A stretch of DNA of 64,000 nucleotides from Alphaproteobacteria bacterium (GTDB lineage Bacteria > Pseudomonadota > Alphaproteobacteria > Caulobacterales > Maricaulaceae). The translations under genes and the position numbers were made by a program. The stretch is from NCBI GenBank assembly GCA_024278855.1, contig JAJRSJ010000005.1, forward strand, positions 1-64,000. Reading direction: 5' to 3'. The notes under the pieces were generated by a model. That model was not told where the DNA came from and made no database searches. It saw only the letters and a list, made by a program, of their open reading frames with translations. Shown here piece after piece: positions 2,192 to 42,884 of this stretch; the stretch's first letter is position 1; every line of letters begins with the position of its first letter.

Positions 2192-2982
2192 TTATGCCCG
2201 CTTAATGAAAAAGCAGTGGACGTTATCATTGGTATAGCGGGTGATTTTATTCTTCAGGACGAAACGATAGTTTTCATTGTCGGCCAATGTTTTTAAGGTG
2301 GCGATACCAAAATAATTGAGATGATCCGGGAAGCGAAACCCGCACCAGTCAATGCCGCGCACGGCCCGGTTTATGGTGTCAAAATTCGGCACTTTAATAT
2401 AGATAGCCCCGCCCGATTTTAGCTTGTCGGTACAAGCTTTGATCACCTGTCTTGGCTTTGCTTCATGCTCAAGATAGGAGCGCATGATAATCCCGTCCAA
2501 GAACCCGTCCTCAAATTGTTCCAGACCCTCCAGAGCCGGGGCATGGATAACATAACCGCCGCGTTTTTTCATCAACTTATGGGATATTTCGGCGGCCTGT
2601 TTTTCAATTTCAATACCGTAAGGCGTAAATTGCGCCGGGATATTATTCAAACCACCACAGCCAATATCCAGTACATTGCCGATTTTAACCTGGGTGCTAA
2701 TATAATCCCATTCATCGTCTCGAAACATATGTAAGCGCCACCGGGTTTTGGCGTCCAGCCAAGCGACAATCGGTTCTTTTTCCTTGCGACGTTTTTTCTC
2801 TTGGCAAACTGTTTTGTCCAAGCCAAATCCTCGCTCAGACTTTCATAGCCGGGGGCTTCGTCCAGATATATCATCGCGCACTTTTCGCACCTAACTGTAT
2901 TCCAGTCAGGATGGCTCAATTTGGGTAAAGCAGTGTTGTGTTTACTGGCACAAACCGGACAATTTCGTTTATTTTTTTTCAT
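2192..2982 (-). pseudogene. Class I SAM-dependent methyltransferase with N-terminal zinc knuckle, broken by a -1 frameshift
   Basis: Two overlapping minus-strand frames together make one protein. The first (2982 down to about 2797) has a zinc-knuckle pair, Cys8/Cys11 and Cys32/Cys35, then GYESLSEDLAW. The second (to 2192) continues with KEKEPIVAWLDAKTRWR and the SAM-binding motif VLDIGCGG. To join them the ribosome must step back one base at about 2791-2797. There the coding strand reads A AAA AAC in the upstream frame, a canonical -1 slippery heptamer but also a homopolymer prone to one-base loss. The substrate is unknown. It is followed on the same strand's upstream side by a GT2 glycosyltransferase gene, which hints at envelope work, but that is inference. 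A one-base deletion, real or a sequencing error, is the simplest explanation. Confidence 0.8.
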
Positions 2983-3011
2983 AATACCACATTAGTTCAA
3001 ATCTATAGACG

Positions 3012-5449: not shown

Positions 5450-7210
5450 ATGAACAAGATAAACTTGCAAATTCGCGATATGGTAATGTTGGCTCTGTTA
5501 GTGTTGGCTATGGCTTTGCCGGGATTGGCAAGCTTACCGGTGATTGACCGCGACGAAGCCCGCTATGCCCAAGCGACCGTACAGATGCTAGAGAGCGGTG
5601 ATTATATCAATATCCGCTTCCAAGACCAAGCCCGCAATAAAAAACCCGCCGGGGCTTACTGGGCGCAAGCGGCCAGTGTCAAAGCATTCTCGGATGTAGA
5701 AAAACGCCAGATATGGGCGCACCGCATTCCGTCGGTTCTAGGGGCGTTATTGGCTATTCTCGCAAGCTATTGGGCCGGGCGGCGTTTGTTGGGCCGCGAG
5801 GCGGCTTTATACGGTTCGGCCATGTTGGCGGTCAGTTTTATCTTTGTGTTTGAAGCCCATATCGCCAAAACCGACGCGCTTTTATTGGGGTTTTCCGCAT
5901 TGGTTCTTTGTGCAATTGTCGCCTTGCGAAATGTTCCCGGCCGCTCACAAAAGCAAAAAGAAACATTAAAAGCCGCGATCAAGAACAAACATGCCGTAAA
6001 GCCCGCCGTTTTATTCTGGTTCGGCCTTGGTATGGCCGTGATGATCAAAGGCCCGATCTTGCCATTTTTGCTGATTTTGTGTTTTGCCGCTTTGTTTATT
6101 TGGGAACGTAATGCCAACTGGTTAAAACCCCTGCTCTATTGGCCGGGGCCGTTGTTGTTTTTACTGATCGTTTTGCCTTGGGCCATTTTGATTGGCCGCG
6201 AAACCGGTGGCGCGTTTTTCACCGAGGCAATTGGCAATGATCTGGTGCCAAAACTGCAAGGCGTTCAAGAAAGCCATCCCGGTCCGCCGGGCTATTACGC
6301 CCTTACGATCTGGCTCGCTTTTTGGCCTGCCTGTCTGTTCTTGCTGCCGGGGCTTGTCTTTGCGGTTCGCGCCGCAAGAAATAAATCCAGCTTTGATGCG
6401 CCCGTCGCCAAAGCCGCCCGTTTGTTGTTGTGCTGGGCCGTGCCATTTTTCATTGTTACGGAATTCATACCGACCAAATTGCCCCACTACACCTTGTTGA
6501 CCTTTCCGGCCCTTGCCCTGTTGGCCGGTGCGGCAGTTGCCACCATGACCAAAGTCAATGAATTCACCTTGAGCCGCCGTGTTGGGGCCATTTTGTTTTC
6601 GGCCATCACCATAATTGTCGTCGCCGTGCTGTTAATCGCCGAATCCTATTATGGTAATTTTCCGAGTTGGAGTTTTTTAGTCTTGTATTCGGGTATTTTG
6701 CTCAGCTTATTTGCCAGTTGGAGCCTATGGCGCGGCAAAGCGTTTTATGCGTTTTTGGGCGCGGTGGTGACGGCGGCCATGCTGAATATTTTCACCTATC
6801 AATTTACCTTACCCTCCCTAAAAACCTTGCAAATTAGCGCTCAAGTAAAAACGGCGCTTGGCAACAATAATATCGATACCCCCATCTCAAACATGACCAT
6901 TCTTTCGACCCAATTTACAGAGCCTAGCCTGGTTTACCGTCTGGGTACGGGGATGTTACTGGGCAAGCCCGAAGAAAGACTGGCCAATTTAAATCTGGTT
7001 GTTGGTGATATTGTACTTTTGGATACAAACCGGAAAGACACCGAAGACTATACCCAAAAGCTGACAGAAAAATTGGCGCTGACTGACTTATGCCTGACCA
7101 ATTTGCACACCATTAAAGGGTTTAACTATGCCAAGGGCGACGCCGTTAAACTTGATATATTACAAGCAAATACCTGCCCAGAGCTGATACCGGAACCTAG
7201 TTTACCGTAA
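5450..7210 (+). CDS. ArnT/PMT-like membrane glycosyltransferase (GT-C fold)
   Basis: A 586-residue polytopic protein with about 12 membrane helices. The first periplasmic loop holds the GT-C acidic motif PVIDRDEARYAQAT (Asp33, Asp35, Glu36), followed by FQDQARNKKPAGAYWAQA, a pattern shared by ArnT and other dolichyl/undecaprenyl-phosphate-sugar dependent transferases. HIAKTDALLL and FIPTKLPHYTLLTFPALALL are further family signatures. It should transfer a sugar from a polyprenyl-phosphate carrier to lipid A or another envelope acceptor. The GT2 enzyme encoded at 3012-3755 could supply such a carrier, but this is inference; it is on the other strand. Confidence 0.87.
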   Translation: MNKINLQIRDMVMLALLVLAMALPGLASLPVIDRDEARYAQATVQMLESGDYINIRFQDQARNKKPAGAYWAQAASVKAFSDVEKRQIWAHRIPSVLGALLAILASYWAGRRLLGREAALYGSAMLAVSFIFVFEAHIAKTDALLLGFSALVLCAIVALRNVPGRSQKQKETLKAAIKNKHAVKPAVLFWFGLGMAVMIKGPILPFLLILCFAALFIWERNANWLKPLLYWPGPLLFLLIVLPWAILIGRETGGAFFTEAIGNDLVPKLQGVQESHPGPPGYYALTIWLAFWPACLFLLPGLVFAVRAARNKSSFDAPVAKAARLLLCWAVPFFIVTEFIPTKLPHYTLLTFPALALLAGAAVATMTKVNEFTLSRRVGAILFSAITIIVVAVLLIAESYYGNFPSWSFLVLYSGILLSLFASWSLWRGKAFYAFLGAVVTAAMLNIFTYQFTLPSLKTLQISAQVKTALGNNNIDTPISNMTILSTQFTEPSLVYRLGTGMLLGKPEERLANLNLVVGDIVLLDTNRKDTEDYTQKLTEKLALTDLCLTNLHTIKGFNYAKGDAVKLDILQANTCPELIPEPSLP

Positions 7211-7269
7211 TTTATTTCCCGGCAAAAATGGTGATATTCTAGTGCTCTCCAACAACACAATTTGTTATT

Positions 7270-7297
7270 CTATAGGCGTAAGTCTATGGGCGTAAGT
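7270..7297. repeat. 14-bp tandem duplication at the thrS stop codon
   Basis: CTATAGGCGTAAGT is followed directly by CTATGGGCGTAAGT (one mismatch). The second copy contains the thrS stop (TAG on the minus strand at 7284-7286). Confidence 0.75.
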
Positions 7298-9215
7298 CGG
7301 GCGGGGTCGCCTCTTTGGTTAAGTTGGCAATAGCATCGGCCAAAACAAGAACCTCCTGTTGCCTGTCGCCAAGAAACCGCAGGGCCAATTTACCTTCCTC
7401 GGCTTCTTTGCGGCCTATGACTGCAATGACCGGGACTTTCGCGAGGGAATGCTCACGGATTTTGTAATTGATTTTCTCGTTGCGCACATCAGTTTCGACC
7501 CGAAGCCCCGCCGCCCGTAATGCAGCCGCCGCCTCTAGGGCATAGGCGTCTGCGTCCGAAGTAATGGTCGCCAAAACCACCTGAACAGGCGCCAACCACA
7601 ACGGAAACCGCCCGGCATGTTCTTCGATCAATATGCCCAAAAACCGCTCCATGGAACCAAGGATAGCCCGGTGCAACATGACGGGCCGTTTTTTGGTATC
7701 GTCTTTGGCAATATAACTGGCGTCCAGTCGTTCGGGCGTGCCGAAATCTACCTGTAAAGTCCCGCATTGCCAGTCACGGCCAATGGCATCGCGCAAGACA
7801 AATTCCAGGTTTGGGCCGTAAAATGCACCCTCTCCGGGGTTCAGTATCACCTCAAGTCCGGCGGCGTTAACCGCGTCCATCAAGGCTTTTTCGGATTTAT
7901 CCCAAGTCTCGTCAGAGCCGGTACGCACGTCCGGGCGATCAGAAAATTTCACCACAACATCGGTAAAACCAAAATCGGCATAAATACCCATGAGCAAATC
8001 AATAAAGGTTTTAGTCTCGTCAATAATTTGCTCTTCGGTGCAAAAAATGTGGGCGTCGTCCTGGGTAAACCCGCGCACCCGCATAATGCCGTGCAAAGCC
8101 CCGGACGGTTCATTTCTATGGCAACAGCCAAATTCGGCCATGCGCAAGGGCAAATCACGGTAGGATTTCTGGCCCTGGTTAAAAATCTGCACATGGGCCG
8201 GGCAGTTCATGGGCTTTAGGGCATGGATTTCGTCGTGTTCGCCGTGGCTAACCTTCGACACAAACATGTTCTCGCGAAATTTATCCCAATGCCCCGACGC
8301 CACCCATAATTTATGGTCGATGAGCATGGGGGTTTTGACCTCTTCATAATCGGCCTTTTGCAGTTTACGGCGAATATAGTCTTCCACCTGCCGCCAGATC
8401 GTCGCGCCTTTATCGTGCCAGAACACCATGCCTTGCGCTTCGGGTTGCAAATGAAATAAATCCATCTCGCGGCCTATGCGGCGGTGGTCGCGTTTTTCGG
8501 CTTCTGCAATGCGGTGCAAATGTGCATCCAAATCGTCTTTGTTGGCCCAGGCCGTGCCGTAAATCCGTTGTAATTGCGCGTTATTACTGTCGCCGCGCCA
8601 ATAGGCTCCGGCAACTTTCATCAGTTTGAAAGCATTACCAACTTTGATAGTACTGGGCAGGTGTGGCCCCAGACATAAGTCTAACCACTCTCCCTGTTTA
8701 TAAATGGTAATGGTTTCGTCTGCAGGCAAATCTGAAATCAATTCGGCTTTGTAGGTTTCACCCTTGTCGGTGAAATACTTAATCGCATCATCTCTGTCCC
8801 AAACCTCGCGCACGAACGGTTTGTTTTGCTGGATGATGAATTTCATCTTTTTCTCGATAGCGGCAAAGTCTTCACTGGAAAATGGCTCGTCGCGGGCAAA
8901 GTCGTAATAAAAACCGTCTTCAATCACCGGGCCGATGGTCACTTGGGTACCGGGGAATAGTGCTTGCACGGCTTCGGCCATCACATGGGCGCAATCATGG
9001 CGGATGAGCTCCAAGCCTTCTGGATCGGCGGCGGTGATCAATTGCAGTTTGGTATCACCCTCTAGGGCCCGCGTCGCATCCCAAAGTTCGCCGTTCACCC
9101 GCGCCGCCAATACTTTTTTGGCCAGAGATTTTGACAAGGCTTTGGCCACATCCATTGCAGATGTGCCGTCTTCAAATTCGCGGGTTGCACCGTCAGGAAA
9201 TGTTATTGTCAACAT
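7284..9215 (-). CDS. thrS: Threonyl-tRNA synthetase
   Basis: A 643-residue class II synthetase that charges tRNA-Thr. Order: N-terminal TGS domain (residues 1-60), the editing domain with [13 protein letters not shown], the catalytic core with [12 protein letters not shown] (the zinc-binding Cys), [19 protein letters not shown] and the class II motif 3 region [21 protein letters not shown], then a C-terminal anticodon-binding domain ([15 protein letters not shown] to the end). Full length. The ATG at 9215 lies inside the end of yidD (23-base overlap), so the gene is the last of an overlapping four-gene operon. Confidence 0.98.
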
Positions 9216-20925: not shown

Positions 20926-21000
20926 GCGCGAAATACTTTAATTGTAAAAATATTTTCATTTAGCCTTATTTTTCAATCACTTAACACTATACGGCTTTTG

Positions 21001-21029
21001 TTGACACCGCATAGAGGTGCGCGTAAGTT
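21001..21029 (+). promoter_or_regulatory. Possible sigma-70-type promoter of the F0 operon
   Basis: TTGACA (21001-21006), a 17-base spacer and a poor -10 (TAAGTT, 21024-21029) lie about 60 bases before the proposed atpI start. A GANTC site (GAATC, 21058-21062) lies between. I see no gene in 20926-21090. Confidence 0.35.
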
Positions 21030-21090
21030 GCCCGCGTTTGATGGGTGACCATCTTGCGAATCGAACATTTTTATCCACGAGGGAAATTCT

Positions 21091-21420
21091 CTGAAACAAA
21101 CACCAAAATCCGACCAAGACCGCGCGAAAAAACTGGAGGCTTTGGGGGAGAAAGTAAAATCCGCACAAAAAGCCAGAACACCTGATTTAGACGAAGAGGC
21201 TTCTGGATGGGCGGTCGGTATAAATTATGCCAGTGTGTTTACAGGCGCCGTTATAGTTGGCGGCGCATTTGGGTATGGGTTTGATTTTTTAGCCGGCACC
21301 AAGCCTTGGGGTTTGATGGTCGGGGTGGTTCTAGGCTTTGCCGCAGGCACACGCAGTGTCGTGCAAATGGCGCAAGGTATGATGAATGAAGACGGCGAAG
21401 ATGCAGACGGCGAAAGCTGA
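21091..21420 (+). CDS. atpI: ATP synthase protein I, probable CTG start
   Basis: A 109-residue small membrane protein that assists F0 assembly. Two membrane helices (INYASVFTGAVIVGGAFGYGFDFLAG and PWGLMVGVVLGFAAGTRSV) with the acidic C-terminus are typical. No in-frame ATG or GTG serves as start. The first is TTG at 21142, but GAGGGA stands 6 bases before an in-frame CTG at 21091, and starting there gives the charged N-terminal helix (DRAKKLEALGEKVKSAQ) that family members have. CTG as a start is rare; a changed ATG or a sequence error is an alternative. First gene of the F0 operon. Confidence 0.75.
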   Translation: MKQTPKSDQDRAKKLEALGEKVKSAQKARTPDLDEEASGWAVGINYASVFTGAVIVGGAFGYGFDFLAGTKPWGLMVGVVLGFAAGTRSVVQMAQGMMNEDGEDADGES

Positions 21421-21469
21421 TTTGAAATACAAATAGCGAAATTTTCGCAAAAGAATTGAAAGACCAGTA

Positions 21470-22243
21470 ATGGCAAAAGAAGCAGGCAAACAGTTTGACC
21501 CGATCAGACAATTTGATCTCCACAATATGGTGGATATTCAGATCGGCAAATACGACATAAGTTTCACCAATTCATCCTTTATGATGGTGGTGGCCGTAGT
21601 CTGTATTTGTCTATTTTTGTATTTATCCACGACGAAAAAATCCCTTGTGCCGGGACGTTGGTAGTCCGTTGCAGAAATTTCCTATGAATTTGTCGCCGAC
21701 ATGGTGCGCTCAACTGCCGGACGCGACGGGCTTAAATTTTTCCCATTTGTCTACGCCCTGTTCATGTTTATTTTGTTTGCCAACATGCTCGGGCTCGTCC
21801 CGTTCTTTTTCACCCCTACCTCACATATTATTGTAACCTTTGCTTTGGCTATGATGGTGATGACCACGGTATTAATTGTCGGGTTTTGGAAAAACGGGCT
21901 TGGGTTTTTGCAATTATTCAACCCGTCCGGCGTGCCTATGATCCTAAAGATCGTATTGGTCACACCCCTTGAAATTATATCGTTCATGTCGCGCCCCTTG
22001 TCCCATTCAATCAGGCTTTGGGCCAATATGTTGGCCGGGCATATTATGCTGAAACTGTTCGCCAGCTTCATTATTGCCATGGCGGTCGGCTTGACGGGGG
22101 CGTTTAAATTGGGGGCAATTGCGCCTGCAATTATGACCATTGCCCTGACCCCTCTTGAAATTCTGGTGGCGTTTTTGTAAGCCTATGTGTTTGCCATTCT
22201 CACCAGCGTATATTTAAACGACGCGCTCCATCCGGGGCATTAA
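21470..22243 (+). pseudogene. atpB: ATP synthase F0 subunit a, interrupted by in-frame TAG and TAA
   Basis: The frame would encode about 257 residues, normal length for subunit a, which carries the proton half-channels. Codon 65 is TAG (21662-21664) in VPGRW-stop-SVAEISYEF, and codon 237 is TAA (22178-22180) in LVAFL-stop-AYVFAIL. Relatives have glutamine at both places (PGRLQS, AFLQAYVF). Everything else is intact, including SHSIRLWANMLAGHIMLK with the essential Arg and the C-terminal YLNDALHPGH. Both stops equal one C-to-T change of a Gln codon (CAG, CAA). Interpretations: real nonsense mutations, readthrough or suppression, or errors in the sequence. Conservation between the stops argues that any loss is very recent. 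Confidence 0.88.
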
Positions 22244-22293
22244 GACCACTAAGAAACTTACGTTAACTGCACAACCAAATTAGGAGAAATATC

Positions 22294-22518
22294 ATGGACG
22301 CAGAAGCAGCAAGACTAATCGGCGCAGGCCTGGCCTGTTCAGGCATGATCGGTGCCGGTATTGGCCTCGGCCACATTTTCGGCAATTATCTAAGTGCCGC
22401 CATTCGCAACCCCTCGGCCGCCAAAGGCCAGTTCGGTAATCTGATTTTCGGCTTTGCCGTGACAGAAGCTCTGGGCATTTTCTCACTATTGATCGCGTTT
22501 TTGCTCCTGTTCGGGTAA
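22294..22518 (+). CDS. atpE: ATP synthase F0 subunit c
   Basis: A 74-residue proteolipid, the rotor ring subunit. Two membrane helices flank a polar loop ([18 protein letters not shown]); the proton-carrying acid is Glu in [16 protein letters not shown]. The start [14 protein letters not shown] is typical for alphaproteobacteria. The first helix has a Cys ([10 protein letters not shown]), which is slightly unusual. AGGAGAAATATC precedes the ATG. Intact, unlike its neighbours atpB and atpF'. Confidence 0.96.
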
Positions 22519-22549
22519 CAAGACCAAATACGTTTAAAGGACATCACTT

Positions 22550-23085
22550 ATGAGTGGCTTTACTATCATGATGGCAGCGGCGAGCGGAGCCGAGAGCGCA
22601 AAAGTTTTTGCGCCCCTGGATACGTCCACTTTCCCGTCACAGCTTTTTGGCTGTTTCTCACATTTGGTGTCTTGTTATTTCTTCTCGCCAAGGTGCTGTT
22701 ACCGCGCCTTGGCGGCATTTTGGAAGAACGGTCCAACCGTATTGCTGACGATCTTGACGTGGCAGCACGCATGCAAAGAGAAGCGGAATTGGCCGGAAAA
22801 GCTTATGAGCAGTCCTTGGGTGATGCCCGTGCCAAAGCCCATAATGTGGCCGAAACCACACGGGCGAGCGTCGACGCTGAACTGGAAGCAGAAATGCAAA
22901 CAGCTGACGAACAGACCGCCAAGCAAATGCAACGGGCCGAGACTAAAATCCAGGCAATGCGCGAAACGGCTTTGGCCAATGTTGACGAGATTGCCGTCGA
23001 GACTGCCAAGGCTTTGGTCGAGCAGTTATACACAAAGAAAATCAGTATAGCCACCGTTCGTAAAACGGTCAAAGCACTCGGATAG
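22550..23085 (+). pseudogene. ATP synthase F0 subunit b', broken by a -1 frameshift
   Basis: The first 33 codons give a normal b' start (SAKVFAPLDTSTFPSQLF). The rest of the protein is in the -1 frame: WLFLTFGVLLFLLAKVLLPR, LGGILEERSNRIADDLD, then the coiled coil to KTVKALG. Stepping back one base at CTT TTT (T run 22644-22648, TTT 22646-22648 re-read as 22645-22647) restores the expected SQLF-WLF junction exactly. A lost T in a T6 run is the simplest cause; single-tRNA slippage at TTT is an alternative. The zero frame stays open to 23050 but encodes unrelated sequence. The b' subunit forms the peripheral stalk with b. Confidence 0.85.
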
Positions 23086-23107
23086 AAACCGGTTAAAGGA
23101 GCAGATT

Positions 23108-23608
23108 ATGCACTGGGAATTTAGTTTTGGATATCCAACAATTTGGGTGTTTCTAGCACTGGTCGTCTTCATTGTCGGCCTAATGTATAAGGGCATCCAT
23201 AAAGTCATAGCCAAAGCGTTGGACGACCGGGCCGATGCTATCCGCAAAGAACTGGACGAAGCCCGCACATTGCGCGAAGAAGCACAAACTTTATTATCGT
23301 CCTTCCAACGTAAACAGGTAGAAGCCGAGCAACAGGCCAAGGATATTGTCAAGCAAGCCCGCAAAGACGCCGAAACCATGGCCGTCAATGCCCGCAAAGA
23401 CATGGCGGAACGCTTGCAGCGCCGCGCCGAGCAGGCCGAAGCCAAGATTAAAAATGCTGAAACCCAGGCACTGACAGATGTAAAGCTGCGCGCCGTCCAA
23501 TTGGCCGCTATCGCTGCAGAGCAAGTCCTGCGCACTGAACTGGCTAGCACCGACCATAAAGCATTGGTCAAAAACGGCATTACCGATATGGGCAAAGCTT
23601 TTAATTAG
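23108..23608 (+). CDS. atpF: ATP synthase F0 subunit b
   Basis: A 166-residue peripheral-stalk subunit: one N-terminal membrane helix (PTIWVFLALVVFIVGLMY) then a long charged coiled coil (ALDDRADAIRKELDEARTL to EQVLRTEL). Intact, with AAAGGAGC before the ATG. Last gene of the F0 operon; a terminator follows. Confidence 0.94.
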   Translation: MHWEFSFGYPTIWVFLALVVFIVGLMYKGIHKVIAKALDDRADAIRKELDEARTLREEAQTLLSSFQRKQVEAEQQAKDIVKQARKDAETMAVNARKDMAERLQRRAEQAEAKIKNAETQALTDVKLRAVQLAAIAAEQVLRTELASTDHKALVKNGITDMGKAFN

Positions 23609-23642
23609 GCAGACCCTAGGTTTTTCGGTATAGATATGTATT

Positions 23643-42170: not shown

Positions 42171-42194
42171 GAACTACTGTGTTCGGAGGCTTAT

Positions 42195-42884
42195 ATGAAC
42201 CCTGATCTCCTCGACATTATCGGGCGTAGTTTGCAAGCCGTAGGTTGGGTGTTTTTGCCGGTTTTGCTGACGCCTTTGCTGTGTTTGTTTTTCCCGAAAC
42301 GGCAAGCCCTGCGCAGCTTCCTGACTACACTCATCCAAACCATAGACGGATTTAATATGTGAGTTGGTGAAGCTGTGAAATGGCTTTTGCCGATTTTGGT
42401 GGTCAGCATAGCCTTCGGGGTTATTGCCCTGTCTATATTTGGCCAAGCCTGGACGAAATTTGACGAAAGTGCCATTTATTTTCACGCCACTATTATATTG
42501 CTTGGCTCTGGCGCCACACTGTTGGCCGGAAAACATGTCAGGGTGGATATATTTCACGCCAATATGCCGCCCAAGTCCAAGGCTTTGGTTGATTTTTTCG
42601 GATTTTACGCGCTTATGATACCGTTTTGTCTGGTGCTTTTGTGGAACGCCCAAAGCTTTGTCGCTCTCTCTTGGTCATCTTTTGAAGGCTCGGCCGAATC
42701 GGACGGTATCAAAGGCTTGTTTATTCTCAAAACTTTCGTGTCCATATTTACACTGATGATGCTGAGCCAAGGCTTGTCATTGGCCGGGCGGGCGGCTTTG
42801 TTAATCGGCGGTGCGCCGCCCCCGCCGCTCCCGCCAAATATAGAGGACCCATTCGCCAAAAATCATGCGGGAGACGGTCTATGA
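42195..42884 (+). pseudogene. TRAP transporter small permease (DctQ), interrupted by in-frame TGA
   Basis: A frame of 229 codons for a four-helix DctQ protein. MNPDLLDIIGRSLQAVGW and IQTIDGFNM lead to TGA at codon 56 (42360-42362), then VGEAVKWLLPILVVSIAFGV, ESAIYFHATIILLGSG and KHVRVDIFHANM continue in the same frame. Homologs read through here with a Trp or Arg, so TGG-to-TGA or CGA-to-TGA is the likely change. A GTG at 42375 could restart translation, giving a protein lacking only the N-terminal segment; the core helices would then be intact. The end overlaps dctM by 4 bases. The rest is well conserved, so any loss is recent. Confidence 0.85.

Follow-up and report, generated by a model that had tools for sequence, protein, structure and literature searches.

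In Robiginitomaculum-like MAGs, such as NORP61, the F0 genes are arranged in the order a, c, b', b, and subunit a (PF00119) is encoded without internal stops (0 of the 59 matches in 56 relatives). The same gene order is present in the window analyzed here, i.e., the whole stretch of 64,000 nt, while its atpB gene carries two internal stops, both at glutamine positions. Glutamine-position stops are also a feature of the codes of some eukaryotic nuclei, in which UAA and UAG are reassigned to glutamine, whereas in bacteria, according to the available text of the same study, the stop codon named as reassigned is UGA (PMC8629427). Unlike the nuclear codes as outlined there, no suppressor tRNA is among the 35 tRNAs found here, the release factors are intact, and TAA and TAG still terminate genes. 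According to that text, screens of the genetic code can be misled by false in-frame stops from pseudogenes or foreign contigs (Shulgina and Eddy 2021, PMC8629427). As in such false-stop cases, so far as the available text describes them, single-base changes from few codons at conserved positions can mimic a reassignment in the present draft. Unlike those cases, however, genes expected to be vital are broken here, with frameshifts in numbers equal to those of stops, and this favors sequence error over pseudogenes. We consider it very probable that the two atpB stops, together with a frameshift in the neighboring b' gene, are consensus errors spread through the draft and absent from the living organism. 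A literature search for this atpB case found no publication.

Table 1. Features of the F0 operon and other lesions in the 64,000-nt window.
Feature	Position	Strand	Remark and basis
Unrelated gene	2195..2985	-	One base lost near 2.8 kb compared with sister G011; alignment
atpI-like gene (presumed name, from position)	21091..21420	+	Operon head; sequence, alignment with NORP61
atpB, F0 subunit a	21470..22243	+	Two internal stops; sequence, profile match, alignment
TAG, atpB codon 65	21662..21664	+	CAG or CAA (Gln) in 11/11 genus sequences
TAA, atpB codon 237	22178..22180	+	CAA or CAG (Gln) in 11/11 genus sequences
atpE, F0 subunit c	22294..22518	+	Open; protein identical to NORP61; named from sequence and position
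F0 subunit b' gene (presumed name, from position)	22550..23085	+	Frameshifted; alignment
T-run	22644..22648	+	Five bases, six in NORP61; source of the b' frameshift; alignment
F0 subunit b gene (presumed name, from position)	23108..23608	+	Open; sequence, alignment
TRAP-transporter small-subunit-like gene (presumed name)	42186..42884	+	Nonsense change; alignment with G011 and G006

A preliminary description of this DNA had reported TAG and TAA at two conserved glutamine positions of atpB and otherwise normal codons, and both points were confirmed: the frame holds exactly two internal stops and reads on normally to YLNDALHPGH, followed by the final TAA. In a profile search of the genome, atpB scored 200.2 bits against PF00119 (cut-off, 33.9), which places it in the family, with the TAG and the TAA interrupting its frame. 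It is the sole match, and no second one was found in the 79 contigs (2,720,210 bases). Matches to PF00119 are present in 57 of the 61 genomes searched, this genome counted; among the 60 relatives, 56 hold the 59 matches, one of which (in G004) is partial and comprises the C-terminal part only, and four have no match. A codon alignment of 11 genus sequences from 10 genomes showed CAG or CAA throughout at both stop sites. Moreover, 131 columns of atpB are invariant across these 11 sequences, and in these columns nothing but the two stops is private to this genome, private missense changes being absent; as judged from the alignment, atpB bears no sign of drift or relaxed selection. The earlier remark that the stops came without other decay therefore holds for atpB itself, which has no private missense, but not for the operon, since b' has lost one base.

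The closest named relative is the MAG Robiginitomaculum sp. NORP61 (NVVO01000022.1), whose atpB protein is about 98% identical when the stops are excluded and whose codons at the two sites are CAG and CAA. It had been suggested that raw reads or a sister strain with these codons would turn the stops into a sequence error. The codons are indeed present, but NORP61 is a sister species, with an atpB DNA identity of about 87%, and alone is no proof of an error. Within positions 20955-23610, the atpB protein is nearest to that of NORP61 (98%, vs 81% to G011), while smc, which adjoins atpB, is nearest to that of G011 (90% vs 83.5%), and this contrast suggests that the F0 operon was exchanged between lineages. 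As well, the presumed atpI-like gene, the first of the operon, appears to start with CTG or another unusual codon, both here and in NORP61.

The option that atpB is a pseudogene with F0 supplied from elsewhere, which the preliminary description had listed, is not supported, because neither a second atpB in the 79 contigs nor an excess of private missense changes was found; it would also leave the breaks in proS, ftsY, and accA unaccounted for. The F0 operon nevertheless combines three lesions, i.e., the two atpB stops and the b' deletion. Because the measured background lesion rate already gives about 0.36 two-stop genes per genome (2,600 genes assumed) and about 0.1 clusters of three lesions within 540 codons (1,500 such units assumed), we regard this cluster as a mild excess, of a kind that a reader would naturally spot.

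The three lesions could alternatively mean that the sampled population truly lost F0 recently, as part of a wider decay of genes in its lineage, and that it lives by substrate-level phosphorylation. Lesions in likely dispensable genes, such as those for a TonB receptor, an ABC ATPase, and xanthine dehydrogenase, are in line with this reading, which we nonetheless consider unlikely. The F1 gamma gene, located on a separate contig, is intact, and the open frames around it (505, 510, 185, and 122 aa) would correspond to beta, alpha, delta, and epsilon by their size and order. Relaxed selection is not seen in atpB. Furthermore, proS, ftsY, accA, and lysC are broken too, although a living lineage should keep them, barring second copies; to our knowledge, loss of proS, ftsY, or accA is incompatible with life. 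Both mutS and mutL, which serve mismatch repair, are open, which speaks against real inactivation and leaves a mismatch-repair mutator lineage unsupported as well. Compared with G006 and G011, the MutS protein carries a 6-residue insert within the MutS_V match (contig C15 40248-40826, L200).

Similar lesions were found in many other genes when the draft was compared with its sisters. The comparison with sister G011 drew on 1,027,816 bases of the draft and 723,528 bases of the sister, 414 ORFs were aligned, and true lesions were told from spurious rows by eye, unblinded. Over 138,146 codons of the draft, it flagged 14 stops, of which 11 were kept, and 10 frameshifts, all of which were kept; together these affect 19 genes. 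The reverse comparison, over 137,560 codons of G011, flagged nine stops and one frameshift, of which one stop and no frameshift were kept. Under equal rates, the raw flags (24 in the draft vs 10 in G011) have a P of 0.012, and the kept lesions (21 vs 1) a P of 5e-6 for at most one in 22. The kept lesions are scattered over many contigs, roughly one in twenty ORFs in the compared sample is broken, and extrapolation to the whole genome gives about 65 stops and 59 frameshifts. Apart from their lesions, the genes that are broken are conserved, with 66 to 97% identity in the matched pieces.

Three of the 14 stops flagged in the draft were dropped, including one upstream of the trpS start (L200), one in a weak match that is probably upstream of a start (L204 18672), and one in a doubtful 120-aa frame (L259 9743). 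In G011, eight of the nine stops were dropped: that of L229 is a natural gene end after which the next gene follows, those of L227 and L219 8695 are upstream of starts, and those of L228, L254 (twice), L249, and L248 lie in weak or short frames that are probably not genes. The sole frameshift of G011 was dropped because it falls in an 81-aa frame. From an earlier comparison, the rows of L240, whose three stops share one probable antisense frame, and the row L241 5326 were also dropped; they are absent from the later comparison. Against G006, 21,283 codons of the draft yielded five stops and three frameshifts, all of which were kept and several of which were already in the G011 set, while 21,197 codons of G006 yielded three stops against the draft, none of which was kept, as one precedes a probable start and two fall in a 94-aa frame.

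Between the two sisters, one frameshift was seen in 24,021 codons of G006, near L116 5710 (G006:C10), and is a candidate lesion of that genome; one stop in 23,839 codons of G011 was dropped as a weak local match. The stop kept in G011 in the comparison with the draft is a TAA at a Lys position of a highly conserved gene, which we take to be ABC-F-like (G011:C38:258130-258531, L219). Sister MAGs may also carry rare errors. In family searches, one of the 21 TonB receptor matches in the draft carries a stop vs none of 89 in four relatives, and one of 32 ABC ATPases does so vs one of 124 in four relatives. Additionally, a PF00106 search of this genome alone, made apart from the sister alignments and outside the lesion count, revealed a broken short-chain dehydrogenase on contig C9, and one natural stop has apparently been lost (TAA to TAC), fusing an ABC permease-like gene with the next gene.

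The kept stops, which include the two at Gln codons of atpB and one in the TRAP-like gene, affect genes of diverse functions. Stops at Glu codons were found in proline--tRNA ligase and aspartate kinase (both over the family cut-off), a CpdR-like regulator (163 vs 180 bits, below the cut-off), and an ABC ATPase, whereas stops at Gln codons were found in the xanthine dehydrogenase small subunit (over the family cut-off), an ETF-alpha-like protein (electron-transfer flavoprotein alpha, below the family cut-off), a TPR-like protein, and a TonB receptor, the last seen against G006. A glycosyltransferase-like protein has a stop at a Leu position, where the base change of origin is ambiguous. Frameshifts were detected in FtsY, AccA, and acetate--CoA ligase, all over the family cut-off, as well as in a 1620-aa protein that is presumably glutamate dehydrogenase-like, a RhlE-like helicase, the unrelated window gene at 2195..2985, a PhzF-family protein, an MBL-fold-like protein, and a 531-aa protein that was hit twice; the comparison with G006 added b' and a methyltransferase-like gene. 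Where no family match is given, the names of these broken genes are our assumption. Each of the 12 frameshifts checked stems from the deletion of one base in the draft, and about eight of them can be read as a loss from a run of at least two identical bases, the runs being short. The stop-making changes with a clear origin are C-to-T, G-to-T, or G-to-A, all of them from C or G.

Among 12 stop positions, six are Gln and 10 are Gln or Glu (P 7e-4 and 7e-5, respectively, under a uniform spectrum), and all of the 10 kept TAA/TAG lesions lie at Gln (six) or Glu (four) codons. Such a pattern would agree with UAG and UAA being read as glutamine, by suppression or a changed code, which would render the stops harmless. 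If only G:C pairs change, to A:T or T:A, the bias toward Gln and Glu is weak (P 0.02 for 10 of 11, and 0.03 for the 10 TAA/TAG lesions). Suppression or a changed code is highly improbable, since the lesions are not confined to Gln stops but extend to Glu, Trp/Gly, and Leu positions as well as to 12 frameshifts; the frameshifts and two TGA lesions would be left unexplained. Gene ends speak against it as well: the 326 matched ends among 331 examined comprise 160 TAA, 91 TAG, and 75 TGA, near the usage of the sister, so that TAA and TAG still terminate 251 of 326 matched genes. Loss of a release factor is unsupported, as the RF-1/RF-2 family (PF00472) is represented by two full-length open genes (357 and 358 aa) without stops.

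Stop suppression by a Gln-charging tRNA had also been put forward, and it is not supported: no TTA or CTA anticodon is present among the 35 tRNAs found, a set that seems incomplete (no Ile-GAT or Ser-TGA), TAA and TAG terminate genes, and stops hardly outnumber frameshifts. In the main tRNA-Gln(TTG), the anticodon stem is 4 base pairs long, a feature that would favor suppression and that has been tied to stop readthrough in tRNA-Trp in the available text of one study (PMC13092985). There is a very slight chance that this tRNA inserts Gln at some UAA and UAG codons even though these codons continue to terminate genes, in which case a stop at a Gln or Glu codon would be nearly silent and the frameshifts would need a separate cause. 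However, the same tRNA-Gln sequence is present in G011, where lesions are few, and the short stem therefore does not explain the difference. RNA-level correction, by editing or slippage that would restore the frame and the Gln codons, is scarcely credible. U-to-C editing would regain Gln, but U-to-C and U-to-G changes plus base insertion would be demanded across many unrelated genes, and the runs at the frameshifts are short.

Sequence error, which was one of the options raised in the preliminary description, is now the best supported explanation, because similar lesions occur genome-wide, including in genes that we take to be vital. Neither stop suppression nor a changed code nor the loss of F0 would explain frameshifts together with breaks in genes expected to be vital. 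This genome-wide lesion pattern carries most of the argument. Under sequence error, the draft consensus would be sprinkled with wrong bases and dropped single bases, and in the living cell atpB would encode a normal F0 subunit a that has glutamine at the two sites. The cause is presumably technical, be it low depth, damaged DNA, or base-calling.

Several observations nevertheless weigh against an error. The contigs reach up to 200 kb and the draft was rated 100% complete with 0.11% contamination, and very poor data are argued against by such long contigs, high completeness, and low contamination. Two stops with zero missense changes at the invariant atpB sites have a P of 0.0016 under uniform random substitution, 0.0029 under C-to-T and G-to-A changes, and 0.0035 under coding-strand C-to-T changes. 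The bias of stops toward Gln and Glu, the mild excess in the F0 cluster, and the presence of some lesions in the sister drafts (G011 and G006) point in the same direction. A homopolymer-losing sequencing platform was also considered and is not supported, as the draft bears no general mark of it and its homopolymer run lengths are distributed like those of the sisters.

Real stops would mean that a free-living bacterium grows with a broken proton channel or reads stops as glutamine, either of which would be striking. As matters stand, the case calls for caution, since a draft rated complete and clean may hold more than 100 breaks that mimic recoding, gene loss, or lost respiration.

Two odd tRNA pairs were also observed. 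The first, a low-scoring tRNA-Gln(TTG)/tRNA-Asn(GTT) pair at L182:6089-6245 (contig C64), lies directly upstream of frames 6211-7551 and 7547-8617, which presumably are rtcB and rtcA. The second, at L112:1037-1184 (C6 65037-65184, beyond the window), consists of a 71-nt tRNA with a Gln-like D-arm, the anticodon TAA, and CCT in place of CCA, which adjoins a variant tRNA-Arg(ACG) upstream of a gene that we take to be slipin-like. A literature search on odd tRNA pairs and the RNA-repair regulon found none; as a guess, both pairs may belong to such a regulon.

Finally, we also identified lesions elsewhere in the window, in addition to the F0 operon. The TRAP-like gene, a name that we assume and for whose G011 counterpart no NCBIfam match was found, carries a TGA at 42360-42362, a codon that reads TGG (Trp) in G011 and GGA (Gly) in G006. 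The row at 15879-14232 was left out, as it is in two frames in both this genome and G011 and in one frame only in G006. A short stretch at about 42097-42171 matches many places in G006 and G011 and is probably a dispersed repeat.
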